From the IMG/VR virus record IMGVR_UViG_3300044638_003844, positions 1 through 22,183 of that record: DNA of 22,183 bases; one strand, 5' to 3'. A program made the translations under genes and the position numbers. Source of the DNA: a virus. The notes beneath the pieces are model-generated. The model had not been told where the DNA came from. It saw only the letters and a program-made list of their open reading frames with translations, and made no database searches. Of this stretch, positions 1,446 through 22,183 are shown piece after piece. Within the stretch, counting starts at the first letter, position 1, and the number at the start of each line of letters is the position of its first letter.

Positions 1446-1691
1446 ATGCCTAAGTCAATGAATGCAATGTTGGCCATCCTTGGTGGCCCTATGGGTGGCA
1501 AAAGCCGCTCCTGTCCTGAATGTGAGTCTCCTATGGAGTCCGACGGTACTTGTTCCGAGTGCGGTTACGGAGAAGAGGAAGAGTACGAGGGCGAGGAAGA
1601 AGGCGAAGATGAGGGCCACATGGAGCGCATGATTGAGTTGCGTGACGATCTTCAGCGGGTTGTGGACAAGCTCAGTAAGCTTATTTCCTAA
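1446..1691 (+). CDS. Acidic zinc-ribbon protein
   Basis: This 81-residue protein has an N-terminal Gly/Met-rich stretch and a four-cysteine zinc-ribbon pattern: CPEC at 23-26 and CSEC at 36-39. A highly acidic linker of mostly Glu and Gly covers about 41-57, and a predicted helix with heptad-like spacing covers 60-80. Function is unknown. Zinc-ribbon proteins of this size occur beside phage structural genes, so a virion assembly or scaffolding role is possible but not shown. The stop overlaps the following tail-protein start (TAATG), indicating translational coupling. Confidence 0.65.
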   Translation: MPKSMNAMLAILGGPMGGKSRSCPECESPMESDGTCSECGYGEEEEYEGEEEGEDEGHMERMIELRDDLQRVVDKLSKLIS

Positions 1692-3622
1692 TGGCACAAG
1701 AGGCACAAGCTGAAGGTGATGACATGTTTCTGGGTTTTGCCAGTAGGCTTGACCCTGCAAACTTGCAGCCTGGCATCTTGCAAGCAAGCTTCAACACTCG
1801 ACTTCAGCGCGGGATTGCCCAGCCCCGCAAGGGCACCAAGCGGTTGACTGAAAGTGAACTCATCGGCTTAACGATGGTTGGCTCCGGCTTGTACGTTGAC
1901 GCTGACGGCCACGATAACATTGTCATGGTCTTTACGGACAGGATGTACCTGTACAAGCCTGCTCAAGGGCAAGACGCCGAGGATTTGATCGGGCCATACT
2001 TGTTTCCTGCTGGACGGACAATCGAGGTTGGCGGCATCTGTGACGTAGTGACGGCGCTGAACAAGGTGTACATCTTCCGAGGCAAGTACGACAAGACGAC
2101 GTTTGTTGCTACTGAGTCCAACGGGGACATCCTCGATAACGCGACTGGCACGATCACAATCACGACTACTCTAGCGCACGGTTACTCCACCGGCGACGAG
2201 GTCACGGTTGGTCTGACGGACGGCGCCGATACGCCAGGACAGGGCATCACCGGCAGCTATGTCATCACGGTGACTGGCACGAATACGTTTACGTTCCAAT
2301 GGACGAACGAGACAGGCTCGACGTTTACGGCACGGACGAACGATCCGGGCTGGACAGCTCGCCGTGGATTGCCACCGCTTGTATGGCAGGATGGGCTGGC
2401 CTCTGTGACTTACGCAGAGCAGAAGTTTACTGTAGACGGCGGCACAGTGACGGGAGTGACGCAGTCTGTGCCATGCGCGGACTTTGGCTTGTACTTTCAG
2501 AACCGGCTTATCCTTAAGTACGGCGATTATCAGATGCTCGTTAGCGACATCCTGAGCGAGCAATGCGACACGACGCTGAACAACTTCGTCATCAATACCG
2601 GCGGGAACGACTCGATTGTAGGGGTGCTTCCGTGGGTGCAAGACCAGTTCTTGGTCTTTATGACCAACAGCATCTACGTTGTTTTCGTAGAGACGGACAA
2701 CTTCGACATCAACTCGCCTCCCGGCGCTAACAGCAGCACGACGGTTGTTACGACCGAAATTGGCTGCTTGGCTAGACGTTCAATTGTAGCTGCCGGCCAG
2801 TTCGTGTTCTTCCTGTCTGCCAACGGCGTTCACATGTTAACGCCCCAGCTTGACCTGAAACTGCTAGGCAACACGCTGCCACTCAGTGAGCCAATTGCGG
2901 ACTTCTTTGACACCGTTAACTACGACGCCGTTCAAAACTCGGTAGCGACCTACTACAGCAACCGCTTTTACATTGCGATGCCCACAGGCACAGCAACTAG
3001 GAACGACAAGATCCTTGTATACAATACGCTCAACCAGAATTGGGAGTCGATTGACTATTATCCTACGGGCTTATTCTCAGATAACTTGATCTTGTCTGCG
3101 TATATCAATCAACGGAGGCTAATGATTATCACCAACTTTGCTGGGGCTGGCCAGTATGGAGGGGTGTTCCTGTCGGAGGAGCAAGTCGAGGGTGACGAGT
3201 TTAATACGTCCAACGCGCTGCCAGTGCTGCCCTTCAACCTGTTCCCAGCGTCCAGCCAGATCACCGAGTCTACGCTGATTCCAAGCACACAGAACTTCGT
3301 CCACATTCCTGCTTCTGTAAAGACTAGGGAGTACGCCTTTGGTGGTACGTCAGAGAAGCGGTTTAGCCGAGGCGAGTTTACCTTCAACAACGTCGCAAAC
3401 GACTTTGTGAAGATTGACACAACCACTTACGACCCAGATGCTACCGAGACTGTCCTTGAGTACAGCTTTAGCGGCACCTCAGACGGAACCTTGCGCCCCC
3501 GCATCGCTGCCCGAGGAACGTCGATAGCTTGCACAGTTAATTTTGTGGTTGGAAGACCAGCCTTGAAAAGTGTTGCTGTTTATGCTATAGCAGCAAATAG
3601 ACCAATGATTTCTCAGGAGTAA
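1691..3622 (+). CDS. Large phage tail/virion protein with FCCH-like insert
   Basis: This 643-residue beta-rich protein begins MAQEAQAEGDDMFLGFASRLDP, followed by LQPGILQASFNTRLQRGIAQPRKGTKRL. That resembles the start of podovirus tail or DNA-stabilisation proteins, which often read as: choose a reference, define parameters, declare a rule about regions. Residues about 130-225 hold a Gly/Thr-rich insert (TITITTTLAHGYSTGDEV ... SYVITVTGTNTFTFQW). It resembles the small beta domain often annotated in phage proteins as the E1 FCCH-like domain. The rest has repeated beta segments such as ILVYNTLNQNWESIDYYP, consistent with a beta-propeller. The collar gene follows at once, supporting a tail hub or nozzle role. 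The exact component (P22 gp10-like or T7 gp12-like) cannot be decided by eye. Confidence 0.65.
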   Translation: MAQEAQAEGDDMFLGFASRLDPANLQPGILQASFNTRLQRGIAQPRKGTKRLTESELIGLTMVGSGLYVDADGHDNIVMVFTDRMYLYKPAQGQDAEDLIGPYLFPAGRTIEVGGICDVVTALNKVYIFRGKYDKTTFVATESNGDILDNATGTITITTTLAHGYSTGDEVTVGLTDGADTPGQGITGSYVITVTGTNTFTFQWTNETGSTFTARTNDPGWTARRGLPPLVWQDGLASVTYAEQKFTVDGGTVTGVTQSVPCADFGLYFQNRLILKYGDYQMLVSDILSEQCDTTLNNFVINTGGNDSIVGVLPWVQDQFLVFMTNSIYVVFVETDNFDINSPPGANSSTTVVTTEIGCLARRSIVAAGQFVFFLSANGVHMLTPQLDLKLLGNTLPLSEPIADFFDTVNYDAVQNSVATYYSNRFYIAMPTGTATRNDKILVYNTLNQNWESIDYYPTGLFSDNLILSAYINQRRLMIITNFAGAGQYGGVFLSEEQVEGDEFNTSNALPVLPFNLFPASSQITESTLIPSTQNFVHIPASVKTREYAFGGTSEKRFSRGEFTFNNVANDFVKIDTTTYDPDATETVLEYSFSGTSDGTLRPRIAARGTSIACTVNFVVGRPALKSVAVYAIAANRPMISQE

Positions 3623-3625
3623 TAT

Positions 3626-4369
3626 ATGCCCGGCCAACAAATCCAAAAAGGAACGACATACGTCAATTACCCTACCCCAGGCGCTAACCAAGTGACTGCG
3701 GAGAACCTGAACGATCATGTCGATAACGCGATCCTGTTGCCGGGAGCTATCTCCGCACAGCTTGAGGACACGCCTCAAGAGAACGATTACCTGTTGGCCG
3801 AAAGAACGGGGACTTTGTTTAAGTACACTCTTGATAGCATTAAGCAGCTATTTTCATCTATCGTTGATGGTTTCTTGCCAGTCTCTGGCGGCACAATGAC
3901 TGGGCCGCTGGTGCTGGTGAACAGCACACCATCTACGGCAGCTACAGCAGCAAGTAAGGGATATGTAGACGCCACAGCGGCAGCTACCGTACTGTCTGGT
4001 TCAATTGTAATGTGGGGCGCATCCACGGTTCCGTCCGGTTGGCTGGAGTGCAACGGACAGTCTACGGCTGGCTATCCTAACCTTATCACGTTATTTGGAA
4101 CTAACCTTCCCGATTTGCGAGGTGAATTTATCCGTGGATGGGATAACGGTCGTGGAGTAGATGTTGATCGAGCGCTTTTATCTGCTCAAGCGCAGTCCAT
4201 GCAGGCTCATACTCATAGCTATAATGTAGTAAACTACAGTACAATTCCATCTAAAGGAGCTGCAACATCAGCTTTTGCTGTAGGAACAGCAGCCGCAACC
4301 ACAGGCTCAACTGGAACCGCCGAAACGCGCCCACGCAACGTAGCCGTGATGTTCATCGTCAAAACCTAA
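3626..4369 (+). CDS. Phage tail-collar domain protein
   Basis: This 247-residue protein has the hallmarks of the phage tail-collar domain in its C-terminal half. These are GSIVMWGASTVPSGWLECNGQ from about residue 130 (split here after SGW as W-L-E-C-N-G), then NLPDLRGEFIRGWDNGRG, a His-containing AHTHSYN, and a terminal ETRPRNVAVMFIVKT. The middle contains FLPVSGGTMTGPLVL and a VNSTPSTAATAASKGYVDATAA segment, typical of tail-fibre shafts. The product is therefore a short fibre or collar protein likely involved in host contact. This is one of the few genes with a good Shine-Dalgarno sequence (AGGAG six bases before the ATG). Confidence 0.9.
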   Translation: MPGQQIQKGTTYVNYPTPGANQVTAENLNDHVDNAILLPGAISAQLEDTPQENDYLLAERTGTLFKYTLDSIKQLFSSIVDGFLPVSGGTMTGPLVLVNSTPSTAATAASKGYVDATAAATVLSGSIVMWGASTVPSGWLECNGQSTAGYPNLITLFGTNLPDLRGEFIRGWDNGRGVDVDRALLSAQAQSMQAHTHSYNVVNYSTIPSKGAATSAFAVGTAAATTGSTGTAETRPRNVAVMFIVKT

Positions 4370-4770
4370 TGACAGTCCAAGACTGGGAACAACTTGTAGA
4401 CACGCTTTATGAACAATGCCGCAACCATATTCAGCTTCTTGGACAAGTGTCCAGAGATGATGTGGATGGCTATCTTAGCTTCTACGGCGTCCATGATAGC
4501 ATTTACGTTGCGCGGCGTGACGAAGTCATTACTGGCATTGCTACAGTGCATCCCGGCGTTAGCGATTTCAACTGGAAGTGGCGTAAACCGAATGGCATTT
4601 GGACGATTCACATGGCTTGGGCAAGCGAGCCTGAAGCGGTTGCGGAAATGTTTAATCAAGGATTTACAAGAAAATCACCAATCACACAATTGTGGGCATG
4701 GAGACACGACCATGCAGTTCAGATCACTCCTAAAAAACTAGAAAGACTTTTATATGGGCGGAGGAAGTAA
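4369..4770 (+). CDS. Small virion-region protein, possibly GNAT-like (T7 gp13-like)
   Basis: This is a 133-residue protein. The pattern HDSIYVARRDEVITGIATVHPGV, then WTIHMAWASEPEAVAEMFNQGF and LWAWRHDHAVQITPKKLERL, suggests the alternating strand-helix layout of a degenerate GNAT acetyltransferase fold. T7 gp13, the small internal virion protein encoded just before gp14, belongs to that fold. Here the gene is likewise followed by a protein resembling gp14. No acetyl-CoA binding Q/RxxGxG/A loop is evident, so enzymatic activity is doubtful. The start overlaps the collar stop (TAATG) and the end overlaps the next gene by 17 bases. The fold call is inferred from pattern and order. Confidence 0.45.
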   Translation: MTVQDWEQLVDTLYEQCRNHIQLLGQVSRDDVDGYLSFYGVHDSIYVARRDEVITGIATVHPGVSDFNWKWRKPNGIWTIHMAWASEPEAVAEMFNQGFTRKSPITQLWAWRHDHAVQITPKKLERLLYGRRK

Positions 4771-5650
4771 ATCAGCACCAGCGCCACCCCCGGCTCCGAA
4801 TTATCAGGAGTCGATGCGGTCTATTTTGCAAGCTCAAGTGGAAATGGCTCCGCAGGTGTATGCCAGCGAGGCGCAATACCAGCCTAAGTATCAGACCCTA
4901 CAGGATCAGATTGCAAAGCAGGCAGCCACTAGTCAAATTCAGTTGTACAAGCAGCTTCAGCCGTCTTACTCGCAACTAGAGGAAGACTACATGAAGTCGC
5001 AGCAGGGTGCGCAGTTGCGCGGCTTGCAGGAGCGTGCCCCAGAGTACATTCAAGCCTTCCAGCAAGCTCAGGGCGTTGGCGGTATCAACCAAGCTCTTCA
5101 GCGGTACACAGAGCAAAAGCTCGGCGGCTTGCAGGCTAACGGGGCAGCACTGTCGCCAGAAGAGCAGCGCATGCTCGACCAACAGGCTAGAGCAGGCTAC
5201 GCAGCTCGCGGAACGTCGCTAGGTGGACAGAGCAATCTTGCCGAGGTGATGAACCGCTACAACGCACGTCAGGCCCGGGAACAGCAGCTTGTAGCTCTTG
5301 GCACAGGCTTGGGTGGCTACTTCCAACAACAGTCCGCCCCTGCGTTGACTTCATTCTACCAGCAGCCTATGTACGCTGGTTCGTTTGGCGGTCAGGCCGC
5401 ACAGAATGCGATGATGGGACAACAGCAGGCTGGCCCGCAGCTCTTTAATCCTGAATCACAGACTGGCATGGGCTCGATCTACGGTGCGTACAACTCGCAG
5501 ATGCAGTATGCTGCTGGAATGGCGCAGGCTGATGCTGCTAGAAGCGCGGGGAAAATGGGAATGATTGGATCACTTGGCGGCGCTGCAATTGGCGCAGCGG
5601 GAACGCTTGGTGCTGCAAAAATTGCAGGCGTTGCTGCAATCGGATTTTAA
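4754..5650 (+). CDS. Internal (inner-core/ejection) virion protein, gp14-like
   Basis: This 298-residue protein opens with MGGGSKSAPAPPPAPNYQES, a Gly/Pro-rich leader I associate with podovirus internal virion protein B-like proteins. Residues about 20-200 are Gln/Ala/Tyr-rich helical sequence with recurrent QQ and QA pairs. The C-terminus (about 265-298) is a Gly/Ala-rich hydrophobic segment (GMIGSLGGAAIGAAGTLGAAK), such as could insert in a membrane. In T7, proteins of this class form part of the inner core ejected into the host to build a DNA conduit. It is the first of several similar Ala/Gln-rich genes. The specific gp14 correspondence is inferred. Confidence 0.65.
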   Translation: MGGGSKSAPAPPPAPNYQESMRSILQAQVEMAPQVYASEAQYQPKYQTLQDQIAKQAATSQIQLYKQLQPSYSQLEEDYMKSQQGAQLRGLQERAPEYIQAFQQAQGVGGINQALQRYTEQKLGGLQANGAALSPEEQRMLDQQARAGYAARGTSLGGQSNLAEVMNRYNARQAREQQLVALGTGLGGYFQQQSAPALTSFYQQPMYAGSFGGQAAQNAMMGQQQAGPQLFNPESQTGMGSIYGAYNSQMQYAAGMAQADAARSAGKMGMIGSLGGAAIGAAGTLGAAKIAGVAAIGF

Positions 5651-6492
5651 TGAACATAATAAATACAACAAACGTAATAAATAAGGCACTTAAACGCGCT
5701 AGGCGTTCCGCTGTTCTATGGAGCGGCGGCAAGGACTCTACTGTGCTGTTGGATCTATGCCTAAAGATTAGGCCGGATATTGAGGTAATCCACTTCAAAT
5801 TGCCATTCTTGTCACACAAGTACAAGCATCACCATGAGGTGCAGGAAGAGCTTAAGCTGACCGTCCACGATTGGGTTCCAGCATCTATTGCGTTAACACA
5901 CGGCAATAACCGCATTGATGTATGTGAAACTTATTCGCTTGGATCAAGTTGCTTTAAAGTGATGCGCGGCACCGAAATGCTGGATCTTACAAAGCCCTGG
6001 GTGTGCGGTAAGGAGTGGTTAAACAGGCCAAAGGCTAATGTTGTTAACGACTTTGATATTTTGTTTTGCGGACACAAGAATAGCGATGAAGATCCGCTGA
6101 CCGGGAAAGTCCCATTGATGGTAGACATGAAGTTCATGGGTAACAACACAGAGATGTGGTTTCCGCTTCGCGAGTGGAGTGACGAAGATGTTTCTCTGTA
6201 CATCACATCAAATAACGTTAAGTACGACCAGAATCGGTATGACTCGGACGTTGTGTCTCGTCCAGATAAGCACATGAACAGTGACTATGTCCATGCCTGC
6301 TTCCGCTGTATTGATCGTAGAGAATCTGCATTTGTGCATTGCCCAAAGTTAAATGCTGACGTAGAGAACTTGCATGAGTTTGTTTTGCACGAAGAGCCAG
6401 TCATCCCCTACTGCAACGTCCGAACTGGACTGTCAAAAGTGCGGGGCGTGTTGCAGCCACAAGGCAAGTTGGCCGATTCTGCGAAAGGATAG
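5650..6492 (+). CDS. PAPS-reductase-like N-type ATP pyrophosphatase
   Basis: This 280-residue protein carries the PP-loop SGGKDST at residues 25-31, the signature of N-type ATP pyrophosphatases such as PAPS reductase. A later PLREWSDEDVSLYI (172-185) matches the family's PLxxWxxxDV element. A HKNSDEDPLTG segment and a cysteine-bearing ACFRCIDRRESAFVHC (215-231) follow. The CysH C-terminal ECGLH motif is absent, so classical sulfate assimilation is not supported. Thiolation or another adenylation-driven modification of nucleic acid or protein, as for DndC-like relatives, is conceivable but unproven. The gene starts at the stop of an inner-core-like gene and overlaps the next, cysteine-rich gene by 119 bases. 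Confidence 0.8.
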   Translation: MNIINTTNVINKALKRARRSAVLWSGGKDSTVLLDLCLKIRPDIEVIHFKLPFLSHKYKHHHEVQEELKLTVHDWVPASIALTHGNNRIDVCETYSLGSSCFKVMRGTEMLDLTKPWVCGKEWLNRPKANVVNDFDILFCGHKNSDEDPLTGKVPLMVDMKFMGNNTEMWFPLREWSDEDVSLYITSNNVKYDQNRYDSDVVSRPDKHMNSDYVHACFRCIDRRESAFVHCPKLNADVENLHEFVLHEEPVIPYCNVRTGLSKVRGVLQPQGKLADSAKG

Positions 6493-6706
6493 ATCCGATG
6501 CAGTTAACATTCCCAAAGAATACATCCGCGACGATCTGCCATTGCTTAAGTGCGTTGGAACTCGCTGTATTGCGCTTTCTGGGATTGTTGGGCAGGAAGT
6601 TTCGTGTACAATCTATGAGCATAGACCGCTTGCCTGCCAGCGGTTTGAGAAAGGCAGTCCTCTTTGTTTAGAAGCTAGAACCAAATTTTATGGCAAGACC
6701 TCGTGA
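6374..6706 (+). CDS. YkgJ-type cysteine-cluster protein
   Basis: This 110-residue protein has an N-terminal CxxCGxCC cluster (Cys20, 23, 26, 27). Further cysteines are at 60, 65, 78, 88 and 98, within KCVGTRC and SCTIYEHRPLACQRF. This is the arrangement of the YkgJ / zinc-or-iron-chelating family, which also contributes to FliB-type protein methylases. The biochemical role is unknown, but metal or Fe-S binding is likely. The only upstream ATG lies 119 bases inside the preceding gene. Its first 18 residues are Ser/Thr-rich and not conserved-looking, so a CTG near 6425 or another start is possible. Pairing with a PAPS-reductase-like gene suggests a joint redox or modification step. The end overlaps the next gene by 17 bases. 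Confidence 0.75.
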   Translation: MSLFCTKSQSSPTATSELDCQKCGACCSHKASWPILRKDRSDAVNIPKEYIRDDLPLLKCVGTRCIALSGIVGQEVSCTIYEHRPLACQRFEKGSPLCLEARTKFYGKTS

Positions 6707-7372: not shown

Positions 7373-8488
7373 ATGCCACTATCAGACTATCTTCAAGACA
7401 ACATCGTCACTCGCGGCATTCGTCCGCTTGCTGCCATTGCCGATTACTACATGGCAAACAACCAGCAGCCTGTAGCGCCACAGCAGACTATGGCAATGGA
7501 TGCCAATATGGGCTATCCACTCACGCCACAACAGGAAGCCATGTATGCGCAGGCATCTCCTCGTCGAGTTGTGCAGTTGACGCCGGAAGAAATGGCTGCA
7601 TTTAACGCACAGCGCAGCCAGGTTGACACAAGTTACAGCGGTTCTGGTGCAGACTTTGGTGAACCACAAACTGTGCAAGCAGCGCCTGTAGCACCTCAAG
7701 CTGAACCTACGGCACAAGCAGAGCAGCCATTGTATCCAGAGCGAGAGCATGAACTTCGCAGGCAGGAATTGCGAGCAAAAGTGTTGGCTACGAATAAATT
7801 AATGGATTCACTTATTCAAAGAAATCTTGACTATTCGGAAGCTATACAATCCAGTTTTAAAAGAAAACTTGAAGCTCTTGTTGATCCAGAGCAGCTTAAA
7901 TCTTTTGATGAAAGCAATGCCGCTAAGTCAGTATGGGCTGAATTGCCATCATTAAGAAAAGAGCGCGACTTTGTTAAAACAATTCGAGAAGACATATTGC
8001 AGGCTGAAAAGATACAAAAAGACGATCCAACAAATAAAGCTCGGCTTGTTATTTCGCTTCAGACAATTCTTCCAAAGATGATTCAGTCTGCCGCCTCCGG
8101 TGGATCTGACGCAGTTCAGATGCAGGAATTTATGAAACTTGCACCAGAGCTTGTTAATGGCTACGCAGAATATGCTACATCAATTGGAAAAGATCCACTT
8201 TCAAGTGGAACATATTTTCAATGGTTAAATTCAAGTCAGTTTAAAAAGACGGCAGATCCAGAAGCGTTTATTCAAAAGGTAAAAGAAAAATACAACGTAA
8301 TTGCATCTGCAAGAAATAGCGTTGTAGAAGAATTTCAAAACAGAACTTCACCTGAGTGGTTTAGTAAAACTGGAATTAAAGAACTTCCATTGTTTAAGTC
8401 TGACATTGAATCTGAACTTAATAAACAACAGCCAGCAAAACAAATGGCTGCTCCAAATGTTCAATCTCTTTTAGAGAAATACAAATAA
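7373..8488 (+). CDS. Putative internal virion protein with Pro/Gln-rich N-terminus
   Basis: This is a 371-residue protein. The first 120 residues are Pro/Gln/Ala-rich (NNQQPVAPQQ, APVAPQAEPTAQAEQP) and look disordered. The remaining 250 are charged, helical and Lys/Glu-rich. Base use changes with the domain: the helical part, from about 7780, is clearly more A/T-rich than the flanking genes, which may mark a different origin. No catalytic motif is seen. It lies between two inner-core-like genes and its stop overlaps the next start (TAATG), so a virion role is likely. I do not recognise the family. Confidence 0.55.
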   Translation: MPLSDYLQDNIVTRGIRPLAAIADYYMANNQQPVAPQQTMAMDANMGYPLTPQQEAMYAQASPRRVVQLTPEEMAAFNAQRSQVDTSYSGSGADFGEPQTVQAAPVAPQAEPTAQAEQPLYPEREHELRRQELRAKVLATNKLMDSLIQRNLDYSEAIQSSFKRKLEALVDPEQLKSFDESNAAKSVWAELPSLRKERDFVKTIREDILQAEKIQKDDPTNKARLVISLQTILPKMIQSAASGGSDAVQMQEFMKLAPELVNGYAEYATSIGKDPLSSGTYFQWLNSSQFKKTADPEAFIQKVKEKYNVIASARNSVVEEFQNRTSPEWFSKTGIKELPLFKSDIESELNKQQPAKQMAAPNVQSLLEKYK

Positions 8489-10704
8489 TGGCTACAATCC
8501 AAGAGCTTAGTGATGCGCTGATAAAGGCTGACGCGGCTGGCAATACGCAGGACGCTAAGGCTCTTGCTGATGCTATACGTCAAATGCAGTCTCAGCCCGA
8601 AGCAGCCCAAGAGCCTGCCAGCACGACCGGCGACGTTGCCCGTGGACTTGCTCGAGGGATGGGGCCGGTTGCTATGGGTGCCGCAGCTGGATTGGTTAGC
8701 CCTATTCCCGGTGGAGCTGCGATGGGCGCTACGGCAGTAGCAGCAGGACAGCTTATTGGAGATCCGCTGGTGCTTGGCCTAAACCATTTCATGGGCACTA
8801 ATCTCAAGACGCCCACGGAGCTTTTTGGTGAACTCTTTACTCAGCTTGGCATTGATCCAACTAGCACAGAGGCTGGTCGAGTTGCAGAATCCGTCGGCAG
8901 TTCGGTTGCGTCTACTGCGGCTGGGATCGGACTAGGCAACGTGCTTAAAGGCGCTGCATCCGCAACCGCAAAGAAGATTGGCGCTGTGCTTGCGGATAAG
9001 CCACTGCAACAACTTGCATCCGCTACGGCTGGTGGGGCTACGGCTGAACTTGCTAGGTACGGCGCAGAAGAGCTTGGAGCGGGCACGAAGGGACAGATCG
9101 CTGCATCGTTAGTTGGCGGCATTACTGGCGGGTTAACTGGAGCCAAGCTGGCCGGGCTACGGCCAACCGCACGCACAGCTCCGGCAGTGGCAGGCATGAC
9201 AGCAGCAGAAACGGCTCAAGCTGTAGCTGAGGCTGAGGCTGCTGGAAGACTCGTTCGTACATCTGATGTTATTCAGCCAGGTGGGCCAATCAGCAAGCGT
9301 GCGCAGGATTTGCGTGAAGCTGTTGGCGGTCGAGCGGCTTTAGTCAGACAGGTTGAAGAAAGATCTCAAGATGTTCAAGATTTGCTTGGACAATTTGGTG
9401 CAACCGTTGGGGGTGATGCCATTCGTGATGTTACGGCTAACCTTAACAAAACAAGAGCGGCAGAGATTGCCGCAAATAAGAGTGTTGTTACTGGCATTCT
9501 TCAAGACTTGGACAGCACCGGCGTTACAGTGCCAACCACAGGCGCAATCAAAGTAATCGACGATGAGATTAAGTACCTTAATGGTGTAAATGAAGACTTG
9601 CTTGCTCCAGTTACTGCAAGATTAGAAAGTCTAAAGAAGTCGCTTCAGGGCAAGATTGCATCTCAAGTAGACAACAACTTAAAGCTTGTTGGGGACTTGC
9701 TTGAAGAGCCCGGCTTGGCATCAGTCAAGGGATTATCCGGCAAGTCAACGAAGCGCGTGTACGACGCAATTAAACAAGATCTTGGTGATTTCATTGAGGC
9801 AAGTGGACGCGACAGGGGCGCATGGTCATCTGCCAATGCAAACCTGCATGAGATGGCCAAGGAGTTGCAAGACAGTGCACTTAGGGCGGCACTGAATAAG
9901 GGCCAAATCAATCCAGAGCTTGCTGGAAAGTTGCTATTCAGCAAAGCCAAGAGCGAGATTCAACTGCTCTACAAAAACCTTGATGTCGATGGCCGTGCAA
10001 ACGCCCGCGCTGCAATTCTTGAGAACGTCGCAAGCAACTCGATTGACGCTCAATCTAATCAGATTGTCCCAAGGCGGTTCTTAACCAATCTACAAAAGGC
10101 AGAGCAGCAGACCGGCGTGTTCTTCAGTGGCGCAGACAAAAATGCACTTGATGCTACTGTTCGTTATTTGAAGCTTACTTCAAGAGCTGGCGAGTTCAAC
10201 ATCGACCCAGCTACTGGTCAAAGGCTATTGATTCCAACCATAACTGGAGGATTGGCTGGAGCCGTTGGTTTAACTGGCGCTGCTGCAACTTATGCCGGAG
10301 TTTACACATTAGGCCGCGCTTACGAAACGCCAGCCGTTCGCAAACTGTTGCTTAAACTGCCAAAGGTCGCATCTGGCTCGCCTGAAGAGTTTGCCTTGTC
10401 TAAGCGCATTACGCAGGCAATTCAGTCTACCGTGCAACAGCAGGCCGTTAGCGAGATTGAGCGCAAAAAGATGCCGGTAGCATTTATGCAGCAGGCAAGC
10501 AATAGAGAAGCTCTTGGTAATGGTTATGTGCTTTCTGACCCGGTTAACGGCATGAAGATCGTCAGCAAAGATAATGCATCACACAAGCTGTTTGACGGCA
10601 GTGGTAGGCTTGTTGGCGTTTTTGCTTCTGAGCAAGAGGCAAGAGATAAAGCCAACAAAGAAATTGTCACCAGAATTAAGCGAGAACTCAAGCAGGCCAA
10701 ATAA
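8488..10704 (+). CDS. Large internal virion (ejection) protein
   Basis: At 738 residues this is the longest gene in the window. The N-terminus (ALIKADAAGNTQDAKALADAIRQM, spread over about residues 10-34) has a helical repeat-like segment common at the start of large phage internal virion proteins. Residues about 48-95 and 135-230 are Gly/Ala-rich and hydrophobic with small-residue spacing, suited to membrane insertion. Residues 270-580 are long amphipathic helices, followed by another Gly/Ala patch near 585-615 and a polar C-terminus. No lysozyme or transglycosylase motif is seen, unlike T7 gp16. Position and architecture suggest the largest protein of an inner-core complex that crosses the host envelope during DNA ejection. 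Confidence 0.6.
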   Translation: MATIQELSDALIKADAAGNTQDAKALADAIRQMQSQPEAAQEPASTTGDVARGLARGMGPVAMGAAAGLVSPIPGGAAMGATAVAAGQLIGDPLVLGLNHFMGTNLKTPTELFGELFTQLGIDPTSTEAGRVAESVGSSVASTAAGIGLGNVLKGAASATAKKIGAVLADKPLQQLASATAGGATAELARYGAEELGAGTKGQIAASLVGGITGGLTGAKLAGLRPTARTAPAVAGMTAAETAQAVAEAEAAGRLVRTSDVIQPGGPISKRAQDLREAVGGRAALVRQVEERSQDVQDLLGQFGATVGGDAIRDVTANLNKTRAAEIAANKSVVTGILQDLDSTGVTVPTTGAIKVIDDEIKYLNGVNEDLLAPVTARLESLKKSLQGKIASQVDNNLKLVGDLLEEPGLASVKGLSGKSTKRVYDAIKQDLGDFIEASGRDRGAWSSANANLHEMAKELQDSALRAALNKGQINPELAGKLLFSKAKSEIQLLYKNLDVDGRANARAAILENVASNSIDAQSNQIVPRRFLTNLQKAEQQTGVFFSGADKNALDATVRYLKLTSRAGEFNIDPATGQRLLIPTITGGLAGAVGLTGAAATYAGVYTLGRAYETPAVRKLLLKLPKVASGSPEEFALSKRITQAIQSTVQQQAVSEIERKKMPVAFMQQASNREALGNGYVLSDPVNGMKIVSKDNASHKLFDGSGRLVGVFASEQEARDKANKEIVTRIKRELKQAK

Positions 10705-13564: not shown

Positions 13565-14113
13565 ATGAACATCAGCATCAATATAACATACGTTAGCGGC
13601 ACAAAGGTCGAACTGGTCGTCCCGCTTGAGGAGCCAGCGCAACTCATCAGCAAATCAGAGTCACCAGTGACACCTGAGCCTGTGCAACCCGCGCAGGACT
13701 TGGCAGATGCCATGTGCATTGTCACGAACAAAGAACTTGAGTCGTCCGGCAAGCGGTACACTTCCGTTAACGAGCTTATCGACGATCTCTGCAAAGACCC
13801 TGAGTCAGGCAGGACGATGAGCATGTACAACATGACGTACACGACTATCGACGGCAAGGAGTGGCAGGTGCCGCCAGGCTTGATGAAAGATCTCGTCATC
13901 ATTTACGGCGAGAAGACCGTCGAGCAGGAGCTACTCAAGGCCCACGCCTGGCTCGAAGCTGACCCTGCAAGACGCAAGACACCTCGCGGCATGGGGCGCT
14001 TCCTTAACGGCTGGCTATCCCGTGCATCGTCAATGGTGCGCACACCGATAAAGACTCTCCTTAAGCGGGACAACCTCATGGGATCACAGCATGGAACACA
14101 AGAAAGGTGGTAG
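13565..14113 (+). CDS. Replication initiator / helicase-loader-like protein
   Basis: This is a 182-residue protein. The C-terminal part, EKTVEQELLKAHAWLEADPA followed by RRKTPRGMGRFLNGWLSRAS, is a signature I recognise at the end of phage replisome organisers and DnaT-like helicase loaders. The basic GRFLNGWLSRA helix is thought to contact DNA or helicase. The N-terminal 45 residues contain beta-like sequence and a Pro/Glu-rich linker, and the middle (VNELIDDLCKDPESG, YTTIDGKEWQVP) is not recognised. It overlaps the DnaB N-terminal-half gene by 23 bases, which supports a helicase-loading role. No Shine-Dalgarno sequence is seen before the start. Confidence 0.6.
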   Translation: MNISINITYVSGTKVELVVPLEEPAQLISKSESPVTPEPVQPAQDLADAMCIVTNKELESSGKRYTSVNELIDDLCKDPESGRTMSMYNMTYTTIDGKEWQVPPGLMKDLVIIYGEKTVEQELLKAHAWLEADPARRKTPRGMGRFLNGWLSRASSMVRTPIKTLLKRDNLMGSQHGTQERW

Positions 14114-14798
14114 ACGCAGGCCGGTGGAGTTGCCGCCTGACACGGTGGTGCCAACTGCGCTGGAGGCCGAGCGCGGCATAGCGTCGATTGCCCTGAACCA
14201 TCCTGAGGTGTTCTTGCACCACATAAGCGAGAAGAACTTCAAGGTGAGCGACATCTTTGATCCGCTTAGTCACCGGGTATGCGAAATCATCTTGCAGCAG
14301 CAGTCCCGCAATGCGTCGTCCGAGATTCGCGTGATCTTCGAGAAGTGCCGCGAGACGCTGCCGGCGACCGAGTTCCACCAACTCAGCGACCTGTATACGC
14401 TGATGCCAATCGCCGGTGCCATCGGCGACCTCGTAGACATAGTCAAGAATACAGCCAAGCGCCGCACCTTGCAGCATGTCGCCTACGAGACGCTCATGGC
14501 CATTAGCGACGCTACAGTGCAGACGCCTGAGCTACTGAGCGACGTTGTCATGAAAGTGGAGAGCTTGTCTCGTGAGCTTGCTCCGCCAAAGGTGATGGAC
14601 ACTAAGGCGCTCCTGCTCAATGCGCTGACACGCTACGAGAGCGGCGATGACGAGTCCATGCGGATAAAGACTGGTTATTCTGCTATCGACAACATCTGCC
14701 CGATCAGATACGGAGACTTCGTGGTCATCGGCGGCGAAACAAAAAGCGGCAAGACGATGCTTGCACTCAACATCATTGCAAACTTAATAAATGAATAA
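14091..14798 (+). CDS. DnaB-type replicative helicase, N-terminal half with Walker A only
   Basis: This is a 235-residue protein. Residues 15-130 match the DnaB N-terminal domain (PTALEAERGIASIALNHPEV, then FDPLSHRVCEIILQQ). A linker helix follows, then the beginning of the RecA-like motor: TGYSAIDNICPIRYGDF (194-210) and Walker A GGETKSGKT (214-222). The ORF stops 13 residues later, at LNIIANLINE. Walker B, the catalytic Glu, H3 and H4 are missing, but they are found in a separate ORF at 16125-16709. DnaB proteins normally have about 450 residues in one chain. The stop lies in AATGAATAAA, which also starts the next gene. Alone it cannot hydrolyse ATP, so function would need the second half. 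Confidence 0.85.
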   Translation: MEHKKGGRRRPVELPPDTVVPTALEAERGIASIALNHPEVFLHHISEKNFKVSDIFDPLSHRVCEIILQQQSRNASSEIRVIFEKCRETLPATEFHQLSDLYTLMPIAGAIGDLVDIVKNTAKRRTLQHVAYETLMAISDATVQTPELLSDVVMKVESLSRELAPPKVMDTKALLLNALTRYESGDDESMRIKTGYSAIDNICPIRYGDFVVIGGETKSGKTMLALNIIANLINE

Positions 14799-15889: not shown

Positions 15890-16128
15890 GCGACTGGGTA
15901 CTCATCCGCCGCACTAATGTGCTGCAAAACGTGGAGCTGCCACGGCCAAAGAAGACGCAGGACGTCATCTGTATCGGCCCGAAGGACGCACTAGGCTCGA
16001 AGATGGAAGCGCTTATGCTTCTGCCCGAGAACCAATCGACGGATCTTATCGAGGTGAAGTATCTGCTTGAGCCGTACACGGGCCAGCACAGTCACACGTC
16101 TGCAAGGCCAGGCAATGGAACGCGATGA
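15886..16128 (+). CDS. Small hypothetical protein between the helicase halves
   Basis: This 80-residue protein starts MSDWVLIRRTNVLQNVELPR and ends in a polar, Gly/Ser/His-rich tail. I chose 15886 because GGGAGG lies five bases upstream, one of the few strong Shine-Dalgarno sequences in the window, and the start overlaps the exonuclease stop (ATGA). No family is recognised. The stop overlaps the start of the second helicase half (ATGA), so that half is probably translated by coupling from this gene. Confidence 0.6.
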   Translation: MSDWVLIRRTNVLQNVELPRPKKTQDVICIGPKDALGSKMEALMLLPENQSTDLIEVKYLLEPYTGQHSHTSARPGNGTR

Positions 16129-16709
16129 ACAAAGGAATACTCGTCATCTCGCTTGAGATGCCAGCTAACCAGATCATTGACCGGCTTGTCGCTCGGTTAG
16201 GCAACGTCAGCCTGCGTGTGCTCGCTGAAGGTGCGAAGCATGAGCGTGACATACGAGGCGTCCATAGTGCCATCCAGAAGCTCAATAACAGCCGTTTGGT
16301 GGTGCGGGACGATCTGTACGACATAGCCAACATCTGCGCCACTGCACGGGCTATGGCGAAGTCGCCGGACGGCCTCGGCGTGCTGTTCGTGGATTACATC
16401 CAGCTTGTCAGGTGCGACTTGGGCAAGGATAGCAGCCGTGAGCGTGAAGTCGCCGAGGTCAGCCGGAGCCTGCGACTACTTGGCATCGAATTAGGTTGCC
16501 TTGTGATCAGCATTACGCAACTAAATGAGCAGGGTAAAGCTCGCGAAAGTCGTGCAATCGGGCAAGACGCTACAGCCGTGATGGTTGTGAAGCTCTCTGA
16601 TGACGCAGAGTTCCGCGAGGTTGGCATACCCATCCAACGAAACGGCCCGTGCGGCGTGAGCGCAAACTTACGCTTTACAGGCAAAACCGCTACATTCCAT
16701 AATGAATAA
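16125..16709 (+). CDS. DnaB-type replicative helicase, C-terminal motor half
   Basis: This is a 194-residue protein. It starts MNKGILVISLEMP, which is strand two of the DnaB RecA-fold with the H1a SLEM glutamate. Walker B VLFVDYIQL (86-94), H3 VISITQLN (127-134) and H4 with the arginine-finger region QRNGPCG (171-177) follow, ending LRFTGKTATFHNE. These are the motor parts missing from the 14091-14798 protein, in the right order. Placing the two side by side gives LALNIIANLIN then NKGILVISLEM, which needs no extra residues. The gene starts at a stop/start overlap and its stop lies in AATGAATAAA, the same word that ends the first half. The most likely product is one part of a two-chain helicase. 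Confidence 0.85.
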   Translation: MNKGILVISLEMPANQIIDRLVARLGNVSLRVLAEGAKHERDIRGVHSAIQKLNNSRLVVRDDLYDIANICATARAMAKSPDGLGVLFVDYIQLVRCDLGKDSSREREVAEVSRSLRLLGIELGCLVISITQLNEQGKARESRAIGQDATAVMVVKLSDDAEFREVGIPIQRNGPCGVSANLRFTGKTATFHNE

Positions 16710-21589: not shown

Positions 21590-22165
21590 CTAGTGAAGGC
21601 GGTAAACGACAGTCTGAACATCTTTGTTCCAGCATGCGCGACAATCGCCGCATTTGTTGCCTTGTGCTGGCGCTGGACACGTTCCGCTTGTGGAGGATAC
21701 TTCGCTTGTGGTCACGCCGAGGTTCTCTGCTAGGCTGTTGGGGCCCGCTTTGTCGATCATGTAAGCGGAAAGACGCACCGTAAGGTTTGAAGGGAATGAG
21801 CCGAACAATTCAACGTATTCGCTGACGATGCCGTATTCCTTCGTGGGGAGCCAAAAGCGAATCTCTGGCAATGCAATGGCAATGCGGACGATTGCCTTGA
21901 GCGTTTTGATGCTCTGAAGGTCGCCGCTATCGAACCAGCGAAAGTATCCGCTTTTCTCTGTGCTGCGGATCTTCTCGATCATAGCAGGAACCCATTCGGG
22001 CGACTCCATTAGCGCCAAGCGTGCTTGCAAGGTTCTCTGGACGTTGGGCATGCGATAAAAGCCCTTTAGCGCATAGCAGCCATGGCAACCGGAGCCTTCG
22101 ACTTGCGCGAGTTTCGATCCGGTCTTGCATGCTAGGGCTGGAACGCTCCAACCTTGGCAAGGCAT
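21590..22165 (-). CDS. Gp88-family phage protein, possibly continuing past the window end
   Basis: This 191-residue protein matches the Gp88 family: MPCQGWSVPALACKTGSKLA, then SGCHGCYALKG (Cys27, Cys30), YFRWFDSGDLQS (74-85), FWLPTKEY (104-111) and a C-terminal cysteine cluster with Cys163, 172, 175 and 178 (TCPAPAQGNKCGDCRACW). The cysteine pattern suggests metal or Fe-S binding, but the role is unknown. The frame stays open through the six codons visible upstream of 22165, and related proteins often have residues before the MPC segment, so the true start may be outside the window. It has its own terminator downstream, so it is not in one transcript with the other leftward genes. Confidence 0.8.
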   Translation of the reverse strand: MPCQGWSVPALACKTGSKLAQVEGSGCHGCYALKGFYRMPNVQRTLQARLALMESPEWVPAMIEKIRSTEKSGYFRWFDSGDLQSIKTLKAIVRIAIALPEIRFWLPTKEYGIVSEYVELFGSFPSNLTVRLSAYMIDKAGPNSLAENLGVTTSEVSSTSGTCPAPAQGNKCGDCRACWNKDVQTVVYRLH

Positions 22166-22183
22166 TTTGGAGGGTTGAGAGAG

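Follow-up and report, generated by a model that had tools for sequence, protein, structure and literature searches.

Related PP-loop and CxxCxxCC proteins

Several described enzymes resemble the two viral proteins considered here, a protein of the PP-loop/PAPS-reductase superfamily (hereafter PPL) and a CxxCxxCC protein of the YkgJ type (hereafter YkgJ). The APS and PAPS reductases (CysH, PF01507) have the same domain as PPL and carry cysteines that align with C119 and C217xxC220 of the latter, and one of their structures (2goy) is among its best fold matches. However, PPL lacks the ECGLH motif, its loop is not degenerate, a single cysteine stands for the CC pair of the reductases and it has an additional cysteine, C231. 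The loops of CysH-type reductases are degenerate (SSFGIQ, TAFGAE) because these enzymes bind PAPS or APS, whereas those of PPL, CysD, DndC and TtuA are of the ATP type. The CysD and CysD-like adenylyltransferases (NF003587, TIGR02039) share with PPL the superfamily, an ATP-type PP-loop and a W-T/S-D-x-D motif. Nevertheless, PPL scores far below their cut-offs, belongs to a separate clade and has no CysN partner, and the CysD of Escherichia coli is devoid of the four-cysteine set.

Like PPL, in which the Fe-S site is putative, DndC (TIGR03183) combines an ATP-type SGGKDST loop with a four-cysteine site of the Fe-S type, three of the cysteines being at matching positions. These three residues of DndC (C146, C280 and C283), together with a fourth cysteine, C273, are the reported or predicted ligands of a 4Fe-4S cluster (PMC12193691). 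The two proteins differ in that PPL matches DndC with an E value of only 9e-4, has its fourth cysteine after the CxxC instead of before it, is about 270 aa long instead of 500 and has no Dnd partners. The tRNA thiolases TtuA and TtcA are PP-loop enzymes that carry a [4Fe-4S] cluster and provide fold matches to PPL (5mkp, 5b4f), but their sequence match with PPL is confined to the PP-loop region. Finally, FliB and the YkgJ-type proteins of the PF03692 family possess, as viral YkgJ does, a CxxCxxCC domain with eight conserved cysteines. In FliB, a PF03692-like CX4CX3CC motif binds one [4Fe-4S] cluster (PMC8598068). By contrast, viral YkgJ proteins are stand-alone proteins of 93–110 aa that constitute a virus-only subfamily and do not include any methyltransferase part.

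Genomic context of the two genes

The window, i.e. the whole stretch of DNA analysed, is an IMG/VR virus record of 22,183 bases. Judged from its gp16-like, gp10-like and tail collar matches, the block that carries the two genes is the cassette for the tail hub and the ejection proteins of a P22-like podovirus (Table 1). The small cassette protein of 223 aa did not match any family in profile searches. Rfam and tRNA scans of the 22,183-base window gave no match and detected no tRNA genes.

Table 1. Coordinates of the cassette genes and of the PPL and YkgJ motifs within the window.
Feature	Position	Strand	Basis or remark
Hub/phage stabilization (gp10-like) protein	1691..3622	+	Virion families; "phage stabilization" and "head closure" matches
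Tail collar/fibre protein	3626..4369	+	PF07484, 1e-11
Probable gp14/gp7-like ejection protein (MGGGSK...; Gly/Ala-hydrophobic C-terminus)	4754..5650	+	Suggested by position and membrane-spanning tail; directly 5' of PPL
PPL, 280 aa, PP-loop/PAPS-reductase superfamily	5650..6492	+	Pfam PF01507, 4e-11; conserved core ends at about 258–260
ATP-type PP-loop motif SGGKDST, PPL residues 25–31	5722..5742	+	Conservation over 210 sequences
Invariant C119 of PPL	6004..6006	+	210/210; profile alignment to the APS-reductase-type protein L250
Invariant C217-x2-C220 of PPL	6298..6309	+	210/210 each; aligned with the CxxC of APS reductase and of CysD-like L247
Invariant C231 of PPL (CPK motif)	6340..6342	+	210/210
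PPL/YkgJ ORF overlap, 119 nt	6374..6492	+	Stop-to-start
YkgJ-type CxxCxxCC protein, 110 aa	6374..6706	+	Pfam PF03692, 1e-8; residues 1–18 unconserved, core from D19
CQKCGACC motif of YkgJ, residues 20–27	6431..6454	+	Conservation analysis
Small cassette protein, 223 aa	6690..7361	+	ORF
Probable gp15/gp20-like ejection protein, 371 aa	7373..8488	+	Suggested by position
gp16-like DNA transfer (ejection) protein	8488..10704	+	phrog_770, E 2e-42; 29% to P22-type gp16 of Salmonella phages

The place of the pair is the same in most related loci. In 210 of the 213 distinct PPL loci, the start of PPL coincides with the end of an ORF of 100 aa or more, and these upstream ORFs have a Gly/Ala-rich hydrophobic C-terminus in 97% of cases, against 18% of the control ORFs from the same loci (the marker being the C-terminal tail statistic only, as the N-terminal MGG motif was dropped, start-codon calls being unreliable). 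Both gene order and this membrane-type tail suggest that the upstream ORF probably encodes a gp14/gp7-like (outer-membrane) ejection protein. According to a review, all gp14- and gp16-like proteins contain membrane-spanning elements (PMC8954989). This position is kept in phages whose PPL proteins share only about 30% identity; therefore, the pair is a standing part of the cassette and does not result from a recent insertion. The initial annotation had rightly located the two genes among virion genes, a probable gp14/gp7-like gene being found upstream and later ejection genes downstream in a recurrent arrangement, but its description of the pair as inserted is weakened by the age and constancy of this location.

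In four loci (L079, L085, L117 and L110), the region 3' of PPL encodes consecutive low-complexity cassette proteins that start with MGG and end with FGG(T/A/S/M) or (M/V)GG(L/M).

Sequence and predicted structure of PPL and YkgJ

PPL belongs to the PAPS reductase superfamily, as it matches Pfam PF01507 (PAPS_reduct) with a score of 43.6 bits for a gathering threshold of 22.5 (E 4e-11), and 30 of 31 members match PF01507 at E≤0.01. Within the loop region, W24, S25, G27, K28 and D29 are present in all 210 sequences compared, G26 in 207 and S30 in 209. C119, C217, C220 and C231 are each found in 210 sequences out of 210, and many polar residues are invariant too. In the profile alignment, C119 falls on the CC pair of APS reductase, and the CxxC of this enzyme is matched by C217/C220. 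The CxxC and one cysteine of the CC pair of the CC...CxxC ligands of APS reductase are thus aligned in PPL and the second CC cysteine is absent; it may be replaced by C231, located 11 residues past the CxxC, a position without counterpart in APS reductase or DndC. The ECGLH motif is absent from the PPL of the window and from the 31-row alignment.

The AlphaFold model of PPL (pLDDT 89.6, pTM 0.85) gave weak PDB matches (TM 0.37–0.43) to FAD synthase, APS reductase (2goy), CysD, TilS and TtuA (5mkp, 5b4f). From these matches to a predicted model, the superfamily is clear and no particular family stands out. The nearest cellular proteins in profile comparisons are two CysD-like proteins (L247 and L248, E 3e-18) and E. 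coli CysD (4e-14), followed by CysH (2e-5), an APS-type reductase (3e-5) and DndC (9e-4). PPL remains far below all the NCBIfam cut-offs, with 30 bits against 154 for PRK02090, 24 against 165 for cysH and 28.9 against 195 for CysD, and TIGR03183 (DndC) is not listed for it at E≤1. In a tree, a check that the initial annotation had proposed, the 57 viral PPL proteins lie outside the sulfate-assimilation reductases and apart from CysH, APS reductase, CysD and DndC on a branch supported at 100/100, the order within these references being unsure owing to long branches. The cassette does not encode any CysN-like neighbour. PPL is therefore not a sulfate-assimilation reductase, as motifs (no ECGLH, ATP-type loop), scores and tree all exclude it, and its membership of the DndC family is ruled out by the scores and by the lack of Dnd-type partners in the 18–22 records examined for them.

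YkgJ matches the Pfam family CxxCxxCC (PF03692) with 36 bits for a gathering threshold of 23 (E 1e-8), and such a match was obtained for 22 of 22 YkgJ members. Besides the CQKCGACC motif, the protein has C60, C65, C78, C88 and C98, and also C5 in its unconserved N-terminus. Eight cysteines are conserved in 178–179 of 179 sequences. The structure model of YkgJ is poor (pLDDT 45) and sequence searches found no solved structural relative. By analogy with FliB, a role of YkgJ in Fe-S chemistry is likely.

All these features agree with the initial annotation, which had described the first product as a PP-loop enzyme with SGGKDST, cysteines of its own and no ECGLH end, the second as a protein with CxxCGxCC and five more cysteines (to which C5 is to be added), and the two genes as overlapping by 119 bases.

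Association of PPL with YkgJ

Viral contigs were scanned with PPL and YkgJ queries, which yielded about 400 loci (the same contig being represented more than once in some cases), and profile HMMs were then run on all of these. YkgJ was counted as a partner when encoded on the same strand within 700 bp, and genes too near a contig end were left unassessed. Among 216 distinct same-strand PPL genes, 194 have a YkgJ gene within 700 bp, 10 do not and 12 could not be assessed because of a contig end, so that YkgJ is found beside 194 of the 204 assessable PPL genes of these related viral contigs. Reciprocally, the 205 distinct YkgJ genes comprise 198 with a same-strand PPL within 700 bp, five too near an end and two with an inverted PPL; counting the latter two (L341 and L361), PPL adjoins YkgJ in 200 of 200 assessable cases. 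The co-occurrence that the initial annotation had put forward for verification is thus conserved. As about 200 distinct viral loci carry the two genes together, the association reflects more than chance: the pair is real, old and virus-specific.

The PPL genes without YkgJ (about 5%) retain all four cysteines, so that YkgJ is not strictly needed. In nine tested records in which no YkgJ adjoins PPL, none was found anywhere in the record, although these contigs may be incomplete. In a maximum-likelihood tree built from 57 PPL representatives, most lineages have YkgJ and about four changes are needed to account for its absence, which is the pattern that a small number of independent losses of an ancient partner would give. 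None of the loci examined carries a single-frame fusion of PPL and YkgJ.

Some loci depart from the usual arrangement. YkgJ is inverted relative to PPL, yet adjacent to it, in L341 (YkgJ at 2362–2679 on the + strand, PPL at 2792–3610 on the − strand) and in L361 (5863–6282, +, and 6287–7207, −), and the PPL of both has SSGKDSQ in place of SGGKDST. In L078–L082, a gene encoding an unrelated MGG protein of 138–143 aa lies between PPL and YkgJ, and the association is kept.

The overlap between the two genes

In 28 close relatives, substitutions are mostly synonymous for PPL codons through most of the PPL core, whereas from about PPL residue 259 it is for YkgJ codons that they are synonymous; purifying selection thus acts in the expected frame on each side of PPL residue 258 or so. 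No separate constraint is seen on residues 1–18 of YkgJ, residues 264–270 of PPL are modelled with low confidence by AlphaFold and PPL genes devoid of YkgJ end near residue 260. The overlap is therefore made of a spare PPL tail and a spare YkgJ head, and the conserved cores barely overlap. Synonymous change falls at PPL residues 227–242, just upstream of the YkgJ ATG, and this drop fits a real YkgJ start there.

In other lineages, PPL and YkgJ overlap in a different frame, abut, are separated by the gene of 138–143 aa or have YkgJ inverted. Because of these different arrangements, the overlap is a local compaction and gives no evidence of functional coupling. Coupled translation, which the initial annotation had suggested from the length of the overlap, is weakened accordingly and was rejected as the reason for the linkage, since the latter outlasts both an intervening gene and an inversion. 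A programmed frameshift between PPL and YkgJ was likewise rejected: there is no fusion frame, and such a frameshift is not needed, as the YkgJ of distant members has its own ATG just before the DC motif.

Distribution of the family

A survey of 50,697 deposited phage records revealed no counterpart of either protein in such a pairing. When 84,980 bacterial and archaeal genomes were scanned by pattern, only two full-length relatives (L089 and L090) were retrieved, both on metagenome-assembled contigs (Proteobacteria and Chthoniobacter) that carry the pair among phage-like genes. These contigs are probably viral DNA binned with, or integrated in, a host, and could be hints of possible hosts. As far as these collections show, the family is viral. 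A "PAPS reductase" of an uncultured Caudovirales phage (A0A6J7XPH8, from BFVD) has the same fold over its full length (TM 0.87/0.92, 32% identity) and is an uncharacterised member of the PPL family already present in UniProt. A putative ferredoxin from an Acinetobacter phage record (31%) was discarded, as it has cellular-gene neighbours and no PP-loop gene nearby.

No description of the PPL-YkgJ pair was found in the open-licence literature searched. The pair is a new family pairing inside two known superfamilies, and its function is possibly new.

Proposed function and alternatives

PPL and YkgJ may constitute a virus-specific two-protein enzyme, catalysing an ATP-dependent modification of the Fe-S type and produced with the ejection (pilot) proteins, one of which would be its likeliest substrate. 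This reading is held tentatively, as quite possible but short of probable, and its part concerning the enzyme class (ATP-dependent Fe-S-type modification) is moderately supported. The following model can be proposed. PPL would bind ATP through its intact SGGKDS loop and adenylate the substrate, and its four invariant cysteines would, by analogy with APS reductase, DndC and TtuA, most likely coordinate a [4Fe-4S] cluster. YkgJ, perhaps in complex with PPL, would bring a second Fe-S (or Fe/Zn) centre and act as a donor of electrons, iron or sulfur, the recipient being either PPL or the substrate. Overall, sulfur would most likely be transferred onto the adenylated substrate. As none of 18 long records encodes a cysteine desulfurase (Aminotran_5), a sulfur donor from the host would be needed. 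An ejection protein of the same cassette would be the likeliest substrate, because of the fixed place of the pair between the gp14-like and the gp15/gp16-like genes, with tRNA or DNA coming second. A bolder and rather unlikely version is that the pair is a phage modification system not recognised before, which modifies an ejection protein (probably its gp14-like neighbour) in a sulfur- or Fe-S-dependent way, and that a large uncultured group of podoviruses requires this modification to deliver the genome.

Whatever its substrate, a putative two-gene enzyme module is fixed within the ejection cassette of a wide group of podoviruses. Should it act on virion proteins, this would introduce the new idea that the machinery of genome delivery is modified enzymatically; should its target be RNA or DNA, the small set of thiolases would gain a new Fe-S PP-loop family. 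The strict co-occurrence and the four plus eight invariant cysteines make a direct biochemical test possible.

PPL and YkgJ could also thiolate or otherwise modify tRNA or other RNA of the host or phage in the manner of TtcA and TtuA, their place among virion genes only setting late expression. The SGGKDS loop and four-cysteine site are of the kind found in TtuA and TtcA, the PDB fold matches include structures of TtuA, and tRNA-modifying genes are common in phages of 35–65 kb. This alternative is nonetheless unlikely, as the window is devoid of tRNA genes, no RNA-binding domain was recognised and a tRNA enzyme would not be expected to stay so strictly linked to one ejection gene in very divergent phages.

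Virions can hold Fe-S clusters, as found in gpL of phage lambda (PMC10721106), and this makes a serious rival of the proposal that both proteins are virion Fe-S proteins, packaged and ejected with the gp14/15/16-like proteins and acting in the periplasm or the host instead of modifying other proteins. Their location inside the ejection cassette would suit such a role, but the full conservation of the enzyme core, with SGGKDS and many polar residues, exceeds what a structural role would require, and no signal or membrane segment was seen in either protein; we consider this proposal quite unlikely.

A modification of packaged DNA, by DndC-like phosphorothioation or another thiolation, would accord with the match of three of the four PPL cysteines to the Fe-S ligands of APS reductase and DndC. 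It is improbable, however, as DndC is the weakest profile match and the fourth cysteine is located elsewhere; phosphorothioation is further disfavoured because no DndD-type AAA_23 ATPase was found in 22 records, nor the desulfurase in the 18 mentioned above. It is likewise improbable that PPL is a CysH-like auxiliary metabolic gene acting in sulfate reduction or sulfur supply in the host, with YkgJ as electron carrier. This is what the superfamily annotation would suggest, and the label of auxiliary metabolic gene is often given to phage "PAPS reductases" (literature, PHROG category). Against it stand the lack of the ECGLH catalytic cysteine, a loop of the ATP type and not of the degenerate PAPS-binding one, the CysH and CysD scores far below cut-off, the separate viral clade and the fixed place of PPL in a virion cassette, auxiliary genes being usually scattered. 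The database label "PAPS reductase, sulfur AMG" is probably wrong for the PPL family. Lastly, the absence of YkgJ beside some PPL genes and the lack of fusions would be consistent with two unrelated cargo genes merely travelling together in one late operon, but this is very improbable given that PPL neighbours every assessable YkgJ, even in loci where the operon is interrupted by another gene or disrupted by an inversion.

Other features of the window

A DnaB-type replicative helicase is encoded by two separate ORFs of the window. The first (14091–14798) stops just past the Walker A region (DnaB_C profile positions 2–44) and the second (16125–16709) corresponds to positions 49–255 of this profile; a PDDEXK (DUF3799) gene and two small ORFs lie between them. 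The C-terminal half of DnaB is an ORF of its own (194–216 aa) in all seven related records that were tested. A homologue of Gene product 88 (PF17338) with a GCYA cysteine motif lies at the end of the record, on the − strand (21590–22183).
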